64,000 nucleotides of DNA from Actinorugispora endophytica. GTDB taxonomy: Bacteria; Actinomycetota; Actinomycetes; Streptosporangiales; Streptosporangiaceae. The stretch spans positions 1-64,000 of the forward strand of contig NZ_SNYN01000003.1 of NCBI RefSeq assembly GCF_004363075.1, written 5' to 3'. A program made the position numbers and the translations under genes. Shown in pieces: positions 36,307 through 39,006 of this stretch. The notes beneath the pieces were generated by a model. It saw nothing but the letters and a program-made list of their open reading frames with translations. It did not search any database and was not told the origin of the DNA. Numbering within the stretch: position 1 is the stretch's first letter; every line of letters begins with the position of its first letter.

Positions 36307-37704
36307 CTACCTCTGGTCTCTGTCCAGGCCCAGAAGGTCACGAACCCCGTCGAGCAGGGTGGTCACCGCGTCGTCCGGCTTCTCGGAGACCGGGTCCGGG
36401 GACGGCGCGGCCGTCGACGGGGACGCCTCGGGGCTGGGGCGCGACTCCGGCCCGGGATGCGGCCCGGGGGACGGCGGGGTGTCCGGGTGGTGCGGCCCGG
36501 AGGTCGGATCCGCCGTGGCGGAGCGCTCCCCGGTCGGGGGCGGCGTCCCCGGGGCCGACGCGGTCGGAGCGGTCCCGGCCGCGGCAGGCCCGTGGTCCCG
36601 GTCGGGCTCGGGAGTCCCGGCGGCGTCGCCGGACAGGGGAGTGGCGTTCACCTGGCCGGGGGGCGGCCCTTCGGCCACGGTGGTCTCGGGGACGTCCCGC
36701 AGGAGGGCCCCCGCCCCCCACAGCCCGAAGGCGACCAGAGCGGTGGCCAGTCCGGCGGTGGCCGGGAGCAGCCAGCGGGACCGCTGGTCGCGCTCGTCGG
36801 GCGCGGCCCCGCCGACCGCGGGCGCGAGTTCGGACAGCGGCTCCGTGTAGTGCGGGAGGGGCAGGTCGAAGGTGGTGACCCGGTCGGCGGGAACCCTCGC
36901 GGGGTCCGCGTCCTCCTCGGTGGCGTCGAAGAGCGGCGCCTCCTCGGGGCCCTGCGGGGCGGACGGGACGGGGCCGCGTGTCCGGTGCAACGGGAAGCCG
37001 TTCGGACCCAGCGGCCTGACCAGGGTCCCGGCCGCCTGCCGCTTCGGAGCCGCGTCCGGGTCGGCGCAGTCGGAGACGACCCGCTCGCGCAGGCTCCGCG
37101 GCGGACCGGGCAGCGCGACCGAGGACAGCAGCCCGGGGAGGTCCGCCGGGACCGGCCGAAAGGGCATGGCGCCGTCCGGCTCCACCTCGTCGGAGAGCAG
37201 GTCCACGGCCCGCTTCGCCGCGGAGCGGCACAGTTCGCCCGTCGTCTCGGGGTCCAGGCCCAGCACGGTCGCGATCTGGGTGTGCGACAGGCCGTGCCGC
37301 ATGGAGAGTTCCAGCAGTTCGCGCTGGCTGGGCGGCATCTGGAGCACCGCGTTGACGACGGGGCGCTCCTCGGCCGAGGTGGGAAGTGCCCCGTAGGGGG
37401 TGCTCCGGGCGAAGCCGCGGTGCTGGCAGGCGGTCCGGGCCAGCGCGAACAGCCAGGGCCGGACCGCGTTCCGGTCGCGCAGCCGCGGCAGCAGTTCGAC
37501 CGCGGCCAGGAAGGTCGCGTACACGGCCGCGCCGGGGGCGTCCTCCTCCCCCGGGCCGGGGCCCAGTAGGCTCCAGCAGTAGCGGTAGAGCGCGGGGGAG
37601 AACGCGTCGTAGCACTGCTCGTGCCCCCGTCCCTCCCGCAGCAGGACCGCGAACCCGCCGTCGTCCTCGGCCCGGTGCCGCCCCGATCCTCGCTGCGTCG
37701 TCAC
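36307..37704 (-). CDS. ECF-like sigma factor fused to a membrane-anchored tail
   Basis: In this 465-residue protein the N-terminal third resembles an ECF sigma factor: region 2-like CYDAFSPALYRYCWSLLG..AVYATFLAAVELLPRLRD..AVRPWLFALART (about 30-95) and region 4 with ELLELSMRHGLSHTQIATVLGLDPETTGELCRSAAKRAVDLL (about 128-170). A linker of about 130 residues leads to one TM (about 308-333) and an extracytoplasmic Pro/Gly/Ser-rich tail ending in a short charged helix. The GTG start follows GGAGGA. Such fusions may dispense with a separate anti-sigma factor. Region 2 is poorly conserved, so DNA-binding competence is uncertain. Confidence 0.78.
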   Translation of the reverse strand: MTTQRGSGRHRAEDDGGFAVLLREGRGHEQCYDAFSPALYRYCWSLLGPGPGEEDAPGAAVYATFLAAVELLPRLRDRNAVRPWLFALARTACQHRGFARSTPYGALPTSAEERPVVNAVLQMPPSQRELLELSMRHGLSHTQIATVLGLDPETTGELCRSAAKRAVDLLSDEVEPDGAMPFRPVPADLPGLLSSVALPGPPRSLRERVVSDCADPDAAPKRQAAGTLVRPLGPNGFPLHRTRGPVPSAPQGPEEAPLFDATEEDADPARVPADRVTTFDLPLPHYTEPLSELAPAVGGAAPDERDQRSRWLLPATAGLATALVAFGLWGAGALLRDVPETTVAEGPPPGQVNATPLSGDAAGTPEPDRDHGPAAAGTAPTASAPGTPPPTGERSATADPTSGPHHPDTPPSPGPHPGPESRPSPEASPSTAAPSPDPVSEKPDDAVTTLLDGVRDLLGLDRDQR

Positions 37705-37870
37705 GCCTCCTCCGCCCGTCCGCTTCCACGTGGGGTCCCCGGACGCCCGGAAGGGGCGAAAAGCCGGGGATGCCCGAGACGCTAGCGACCGGGGTCACCG
37801 CTGTCCCCGGGTTCCAGGATATGTATCCAAACCGCAAGGTTGCTCTTACCCCGGGTAGTGCGAGCAGGGG

Positions 37871-37922: not shown

Positions 37923-38921
37923 CTACTCGCCGCCGCGCGAGGGCGACCCGATGGCGACCATGCGCTCGACGGACAGGCGGGCCCTGGCCGCGATGTCCTC
38001 GGGAACGGTGATCTCGGTGGTGCCGTGGCGCAGGGCCGCCAGCAGCTTCTCGGCGGTGATCATCTTCATGTAGTGGCACTCCGCGCGGGAGTTCACCGGC
38101 TCGAAGACGGTCGTGGGGTTGGCCGCGCGCAGCTGGTGCAGCATGCCGGTCTCGGTGGCGATGAGGACCTTGCCCGCGGTGGTCTTCTCCGCGGCGCTCA
38201 GCATGCCGCCGGTGGAGAGCACCTTGACCCGCTCCTGGGGCACCGCGCCCGAGGCGGCCAGGTACAGGGCCGACGTCGCGCAGCCGCACTCGGGGTGCAC
38301 GTACAGCTCGGCGTCGGGTTCGGCCTCGACCCGCCGGCGCAGGGTGTGGCCGTCGATCCCGGCGTGCACGTGGCACTCGCCCATCCACACGTGGATGTTG
38401 TCCCGCCCGGTCACCCGCTTGACGTGCGCGCCCAGGAACTGGTCGGGCAGGAACAGGATCTCCCTGTCCTCGGGGACGGACCGGATGACGTCGGCGGCGT
38501 TGGAGGAGGTGCAGCAGATGTCGGTCTCGGCCTTGACCGCGGCGGTGGTGTTGACGTACGCCACGACGACCGCCTCGGGGTGCTCCGCGCGCCACTTGCG
38601 CACGTCGTCGGCCGTGATCGTGTCGGCGAGCGAGCACCCGGCCTCGGGCTCGGGAAGCAGGATGGTCTTCTCGGGGGACAGGATCTTGGCCGTCTCCGCC
38701 ATGAAGTGCACGCCGCAGAAGACGATGGTGCTCGCCTCGACGCCGGCGGCCAGCCTGGACAGAGCGAGGGAGTCCCCGGTGTGGTCCGCGATGTCCTGGA
38801 TCTCGGGGCGCTGGTAGTTGTGCGCGAGGATGACCGCGTCGCGCTCCCTGGCCAGGCGGCGGACCTCCTCGGCCCACTCCTGCCTGGCCCGTGTGTCCAT
38901 TGGGGCGGTGACCGTTGCCAT
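37923..38921 (-). CDS. nadA: Quinolinate synthase A
   Basis: This 332-residue enzyme condenses iminoaspartate with dihydroxyacetone phosphate to quinolinate in de novo NAD synthesis, using a [4Fe-4S] cluster. It contains [62 protein letters not shown] and [12 protein letters not shown], covering the three cluster cysteines. ATG 38921 follows AAGGAAG; the much longer open frame upstream is the antisense of nrtR. nadB and nadC, often in the same operon, do not follow; a terminator does. It is divergent from nrtR, its probable repressor. Confidence 0.93.
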
Positions 38922-39006
38922 GTCGGTGCTTCTTCCTTCAGCCGGGCCGGAGGCCCGCCGCGCCGGTCGGCGGGACGGTCCCGAACGTGCCGATGTGGTC
39001 ACATCT

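Follow-up and report, generated by a model that had tools for sequence, protein, structure and literature searches.

A candidate membrane-anchored pseudo-sigma from an actinobacterial family with a juxtamembrane GFP segment

In the window, which is the whole 64,000-nucleotide stretch of Actinorugispora endophytica DNA analysed here, one gene encodes a sigma-like protein with a transmembrane (TM) helix, and we judge the chances to be about even that this protein is a membrane-anchored pseudo-sigma, namely a former sigma factor now serving as a signalling component in the membrane. This reading is favoured over that of a latent sigma released by proteolysis; because the DNA-reading surface has changed, a tethered sigma awaiting release is less likely than a pseudo-sigma. 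Its sequence places the protein in an actinobacterial family whose hallmark is a juxtamembrane "...GFP" segment (the GFP segment).

A sequence-only reading of this DNA had placed a sigma-like part, one TM and a Pro-rich outside tail in a single chain at 36307-37704, and both the arrangement and the coordinates were correct (Table 1). The TM is single (Kyte-Doolittle mean of 1.77), and a Lys/Arg excess on its cytoplasmic side was seen in 15 of the 19 readable rows, with four ties and no reversals, in a topology test that took 20 rows; the TM of the remaining row, L065, is not readable because of a frameshift. In this locus, from Allosalinactinospora lopnorensis, the frame shifts after the GFP segment, which leaves both the TM and the tail unreadable in the same frame, and the change is either natural or a sequencing error. 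The sigma4-like domain of the window protein carries the family mark LEL..RHGL in our alignment, and the DRxTTxD motif of the linker is present in seven of nine aligned homologues. The outside tail, with a Pro content of ∼27%, is very variable among homologues, and the pattern of the terminal amphipathic peptide was found in 18 of 20 rows, with the frameshifted L065 and L068 as the two misses.

Table 1. Features of the window gene and its surroundings; residue numbers refer to the encoded protein
Feature	Coordinates	Strand	Basis or remark
Whole gene	36307..37704	minus	465 aa; GTG start at 37704, stop at 36307
Sigma2-like domain, residues 12-96	37417..37671	minus	Pfam search, alignment, fold
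Sigma4-like domain, residues 114-173	37186..37365	minus	Pfam Sigma70_r4_2 28.4 bits, alignment, fold
-35 recognition helix (former), residues 152-166	37207..37251	minus	near-neutral yet conserved
GFP segment, residues 197-240	36985..37116	minus	family hallmark; predicted helices H203-214 and H216-228
Cytoplasmic linker, residues 241-316	36757..36984	minus	carries DRxTTxD motif
Transmembrane helix, residues 317-335	36700..36756	minus	N-in/C-out by positive-inside rule
Pro-rich extracytoplasmic tail, residues 336-445	36370..36699	minus	composition
Amphipathic C-terminal peptide AVTTLLDGVRDLLGLDRDQR, residues 446-465	36310..36369	minus	pattern match
TAGCGT, -10-like element	37779..37784	minus	comparison of clade upstream regions
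nadA (neighbour; part used as query)	37923..38930	minus	218 bp upstream of window gene

The sigma4-like domain passes the Pfam cut-off of 25.7 bits for Sigma70_r4_2, whereas region 2 of the window protein alone stays below that for Sigma70_r2 (14.9 against 24 bits), and the general sigma70-ECF model of NCBIfam gives 30 bits, under its cut-off of 42.9. We count region 2 as real because (i) the orthologue in L068 reaches 33.9 bits in this region, (ii) a profile comparison between 30 relatives and a fusion protein from the same genome, L141, aligned 161 columns with 96% probability, and (iii) both domains of solved ECF sigmas are matched by the predicted fold of the window protein. The sigma-like module of the sequence-only reading is thereby supported. 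The fusion L141 (3024-4817, minus strand, contig C2) is a 597-aa sigma2-sigma4-zf-HC2 protein with an ECF52-like layout and without a GFP segment. Among the 30 members of alignment A2, Sigma70_r4_2 was found in 22 and region 2 in 15 (E up to 0.01). At E up to 10, three Pfam families match the window protein, all of them sigma; a carbohydrate-binding domain, a receiver domain, SnoaL_2 and zf-HC2 were not found at this threshold, the last being a weak test, as the model finds just 11 of the 44 members of A3. Matches to Pfam Chap-C (TY-Chap C-terminal) in five of the 30 A2 members were set aside, as they overlap the sigma4 helix-turn-helix (HTH) and lie under the curated 27-bit cut-off.

In the family layout, sigma2 and sigma4 are followed by a zinc-finger anti-sigma, the GFP segment, a TM and an outside tail; the window protein contains the LRxRV...GFP segment before its TM. 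A whole-genome search identified relatives in 34 of 60 genomes, and the 30 loci fetched all contain GFP, with the HxxxCxxC zinc-finger motif present in 21 and absent in nine. A profile scan of genome contigs with alignment A1 yielded 181 relatives, and the best 80, which share source genomes with the set of 30, show exact GFP in 78 loci and exact HxxxCxxC in 60; the motif is absent in 19 (L061-L078 and the MAG locus L115), and its spacing is one residue longer in L126. All four zinc ligands (C/H/C/C) were found in each of the 62 aligned relatives that fall outside the clade of the window protein (41 of a type linked to ppa and 21 others) and in none of the 19 rows within it, and L115 has His at one ligand column only. 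The fused anti-sigma of the relatives, absent in the window clade, had been missed by the sequence-only reading. Sixteen of the 18 clade loci are labelled Nocardiopsidaceae, the rest being Allonocardiopsis (L077) and a MAG (L067), and Thermobifida fusca has an orthologue (L064).

In a 59-row tree, built on the 162 sigma2 and sigma4 columns only and containing 14 of the 41 ppa-type rows, the 19 clade rows form one side of a branch with an SH-aLRT of 98. The clade joins L115, itself without a finger, with a support of 97, and with 97/91 in a 51-row tree that contains 10 of the 19 clade rows and 14 of the 41 ppa-type rows. The rest of the family in the 59-row tree is made up of lineages of zinc-finger rows, and a long branch just outside the family carries L141, the zinc-finger fusion. 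The simplest reading would be a single loss of the zinc finger in the clade lineage; the long branches of L141 and the comparison sigmas make the family root unsure, and parsimony alone cannot tell gain from loss. Elsewhere in the family, GFP-segment members from Streptomycetaceae (L137, L122, L128 and L132, from Kitasatospora, Streptomyces and Peterkaempfera) have a very degenerate region 2, and Pfam BACON_2 lies beyond the TM in both members scanned, L137 and L122.

ECF48, ECF52 and ECF53 are described as sigmas of Actinobacteria to which a zinc-finger anti-sigma part and TM helices are fused, and proteolytic release is expected for them (PMC8999054). SCO4117 of Streptomyces coelicolor, described as the first characterised ECF52 member, comprises a sigma domain, a zinc finger, a TM, a Pro-rich region and a carbohydrate-binding module; it influences development and antibiotics, and its truncated sigma domain is partly active, which suggests proteolytic release (PMC5826349). 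As far as sequence goes, the window protein shows the ECF48/52/53 layout, but with no zinc finger: all share a single chain, sigma2-sigma4, a cytoplasmic extension and a TM, in Actinobacteria, and the window protein has in common with ECF52 the TM helix together with the Pro-rich outside extension. Unlike ECF52 as described, it lacks the zinc finger after sigma4 (0/19 in its clade) and the carbohydrate-binding domain, and it has a GFP segment as well as a changed promoter-reading surface. Because the zinc-finger and carbohydrate-binding features are absent, we do not assign it to ECF52. IutY (ECF243) of Pseudomonas putida resembles it as a sigma with a membrane-bound part, in this case a fused anti-sigma, and IutY is activated by proteolysis (PMC8999054); but IutY is an active iron-starvation sigma, whereas the window protein has a degenerate sigma module with nadA and a TetR-like gene as neighbours. 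ECF41 SigJ and ECF56 SigG1 also join sigma domains to a C-terminal regulatory extension, which is described as a SnoaL_2 domain, absent from the window protein. In the literature covered, seen in part and lying outside the main ECF classification papers, we met neither a family with the GFP segment nor an ECF52-like protein that lacks the zinc finger nor a relative without region 4, a silence that does not show absence from print.

The ECF48/52/53 layout, with the proteolytic release proposed for such proteins (PMC8999054, PMC5826349), speaks for an alternative that we regard as possible but rather doubtful, namely that the window protein is a latent tethered ECF52-like sigma. Its GFP segment would take over from the lost zinc finger and keep sigma2-sigma4 closed until a cue at the Pro-rich tail led to intramembrane proteolysis and an active sigma. 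The Trp of region 2.3, kept in 19 of 19 clade rows and in every family row, and the region 4 score are in keeping with this alternative; since the Ala of region 2.4 is also retained in 17 of the 19 clade rows, -10 contacts could survive.

The DNA-reading face argues the other way. The net charge of the recognition helix averages +0.53 in the clade (19 rows; range -1 to 1), +0.39 in the ppa type (41 rows; -3 to 3) and -1.33 in the other relatives (21 rows; -6 to 2), versus +3.30 (2 to 6) in the best 30 of 60 Sigma70_r4_2 matches from the same genome; this comparison set holds the highest-scoring matches to that Pfam model in the genome, perhaps with some non-ECF HTHs among them, and its low end is overlapped by the ppa-type and other-group helices. 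A basic recognition helix, which is a feature of active ECFs, was thus not found in the clade. Further, a T-V-x-S-R-like pattern is present in 11 of the 30 comparison helices, compared with one of 19 in the clade, none of 41 in the ppa type and two of 21 in the others. The helix is nonetheless conserved, to the same degree as the HTH scaffold (0.75 for both, over 18 clade rows). Region 2.2 of the window protein reads AVYATF, versus TQETF and LQDAF in two comparison sigmas of the same genome. The Gln at this site, which binds core RNA polymerase, is Tyr in the window protein and is missing from all 19 clade rows; it occurs in one of 41 ppa-type rows, in none of the 21 others and in none of five short forms, and among four comparison proteins three have Gln and the fusion L141 has Ser. 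A near-neutral helix and one lost Gln are no proof that sigma activity is gone. The repurposing of the sigma part that the sequence-only reading had suspected draws support from the helix charge, the replaced Gln and a paralogue without region 4; its remark that region 2 is degenerate also stands, but the degeneration is clearest in the recognition helix of region 4 and is not confined to region 2.

In an AlphaFold2 model of residues 1-247 (30 sequences; pLDDT 91.1, pTM 0.89), the GFP segment is predicted to pack with the sigma module, at a pLDDT of 95-98 per ten-residue block. A model of the zinc-finger relative L087 (277 aa, 44 sequences) reached a pLDDT of 91.2 and a pTM of 0.89. Foldseek at E up to 0.001 gave no match for the window model, the best being SigL at 3.8e-3, and four for the L087 model, three of which are SigW from RsiW complexes. 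In VIA-align 2, the window model aligned with CnrH from an anti-sigma complex (Z 13.6, 2.8 Å, 151 residues), with anti-sigma-bound SigW (Z 13.1) and RpoE (Z 12.2), and with free SigG1 (7qh5; Z 11.0, 4.0 Å); SigJ (5xe7) matched with Z 7.7. SigK/RskA aligned poorly (8.8 Å) and sigmaE/RseA over one domain only, and for sigma chains in transcription complexes most rows lay at 21-28 Å overall (∼27 Å for 6kon, 6jbq and 5zx2). The model is evidence, though not proof, of a locked state in which the sigma part takes a closed arrangement like that of some anti-sigma complexes; because free SigG1 aligns, whereas SigK/RskA and sigmaE/RseA do so poorly, this closeness is not special to anti-sigma complexes. 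The compact predicted fold, with the GFP segment packed in, would also suit the latent sigma.

PhyR structures were among the fold matches as well (Z 9.5, versus 13.6 for CnrH). The ECF-like domain of this alphaproteobacterial anti-anti-sigma is similar in fold to the window module, and it is described as degenerate in its promoter and core contacts and as titrating NepR (PMC8103513). By analogy, the degenerate sigma module of the window protein might titrate one or more anti-sigmas in trans at the membrane and so free another ECF sigma, which we consider improbable. The PhyR_sigma2 model weakly matches four of 30 and four of 44 members, and loss of the zinc finger could open a surface to a partner; yet PhyR, a response regulator, is not the top fold match, the window protein has a TM and an outside tail in place of a receiver domain, and the predicted structure already shows the GFP segment packed with the module. 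Nor does the contig hold a zf-HC2 anti-sigma gene: the five zf-HC2 matches in the genome all lie on other contigs, in a scan with this model only, which misses some fused fingers, such as that of the paralogue L142. The absence of an adjacent anti-sigma gene, noted earlier from the sequence, was borne out, the neighbours being nadA and a convergent TetR-like gene. Because its sigma-like domain is degenerate and titrates NepR, PhyR offers a precedent for a pseudo-sigma, not a membership.

Three GFP-segment proteins were found in the genome itself: that of the window, the zinc-finger form L142 (504 aa) and L143 (1097-1747; contig C1 near 603596-604243), a protein of 216 aa with a sigma2-like core, the GFP segment and a TM. 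L143 is without region 4, finger or sizeable tail, and no Pfam family matched it at E up to 0.5. Together with its orthologues (L145-L150), matched over approximately residues 20-210, it occurs in seven of 60 genomes counting its own, and ppa adjoins the short-form gene in all seven. Six of the seven short forms are readable (L148 is not, by our filters, and five were aligned), and these have no finger motif, one strong TM and 66-86 residues between the region 2.3 Trp and GFP, versus 152 in the window protein. Among the 41 long ppa-type loci, all from other genomes, 34 show ppa in the DNA fetched, convergent to a homologue that carries region 4 and the finger; six of the other seven end at the contig end, and L112 does not. 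The short forms branch with these long ppa-type proteins (80/93 in the 51-row tree). This region-4-less paralogue gives the best indication that the GFP-segment family can do without sigma function proper, and it counts against the latent sigma.

Pooled dN/dS over sigma2, sigma4 and the GFP segment was 0.21-0.65 in eight of eight pairs, with the highest value between the window and L061. Single-domain values are noisy (1.85 for sigma2 of L071/L074, at a dS of 0.02), and L070/L072 gave 0.94 for sigma4 and 1.27 for the recognition helix. Selection is thus purifying overall, which makes a dead remnant unlikely. A gene in decay, weakly selected and by now functionless, would fit the module losses, the very variable tail and the raised ratios in some comparisons (0.65 pooled, 0.94 for sigma4), but we regard this reading as highly improbable: the pooled ratio stays below 0.7 in every pair, the frame is intact through TM and tail in 18 of 19 clade members, and the recognition helix, GFP segment and terminal peptide are conserved. 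The gene has also stayed close to nadA throughout the clade (19 of 19 members, the window included): nadA lies upstream of it in the same orientation both in the window and in all 18 other loci, at a gap of 83-696 bp. Beyond nadA, NrtR- and HAD-like genes are present in 18 of 18 clade loci, and a TetR-like gene was found on the other side in 16 of 18, the two Thermobifida loci being the exceptions; nadA was not found in the locus of L115, the nearest relative outside the clade. Because these other neighbours are likewise conserved, we take the nadA adjacency as conserved order and not as evidence of coupling, and make no claim of a functional link. GGAGG stands directly 5' of the start in nine of nine full-length homologues examined, which, with the nadA linkage and the pooled dN/dS, indicates that the window reading frame is a real gene.

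Upstream of the 19 clade genes, exact TAGCGT was seen in 10 cases and a one-base variant in five, while neither was found in the other four; the pattern was chosen and loosened by eye to cover variants, and these counts carry no chance estimate. Within the upstream block (37740-37800), exact CGGACAACTCCG follows TAGCGT in seven of 19 clade genes and is diverged in the window; it is a possible operator. The palindromic block GGACAACTCCGG, 3' of the -10-like element, occurs at 13 sites in four of six whole genomes searched, of which two are at a window-type gene (G023 and G030) and the other 11 have no preceding TAGCGT, as judged by eye. A shared regulon motif based on GGACAACTCCGG was dropped, given these 11 sites and the diverged window copy. 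The conserved block resembles TAnnnT, the housekeeping promoter consensus, and a strict sigma-70 consensus scan of the locus returned no promoter-like and no terminator-like sites. The likeness to a housekeeping promoter, and the failure to find a shared motif elsewhere in the six genomes, speak against a latent sigma.

For the membrane-anchored pseudo-sigma, we propose that the sigma module and the GFP segment, predicted to make up a single compact, closed unit on the cytoplasmic side of the membrane, would no longer read -35 elements as a sigma does. Once the sigma part ceased to need inhibition, the fused anti-sigma would have become dispensable and been lost in the window clade, and region 4 and the zinc finger would both have been lost in the ppa-linked paralogue. 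One observation sits oddly with the pseudo-sigma: the finger is intact in relatives with a near-neutral helix, where nothing would be left to inhibit. The sigma2-like core, GFP segment and TM are shared by the forms and are therefore taken as the working part, which may act as a docking module, tethered to the membrane, for a partner in the cytoplasm, with RNA polymerase or an anti-sigma as candidates; its exposure or release might be governed through the outside tail and the terminal amphipathic peptide. Somewhat more tentatively, with chances a little short of even, the family may descend from sigma/anti-sigma fusions and have been stripped stepwise to a non-initiating membrane docking module, losing the DNA-reading helix, then the zinc finger and then, in one lineage, region 4. 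If true, this would trace a route from a transcription initiation factor to a membrane signalling part, and some sigma-70 relatives recognised by homology would not be sigma factors.
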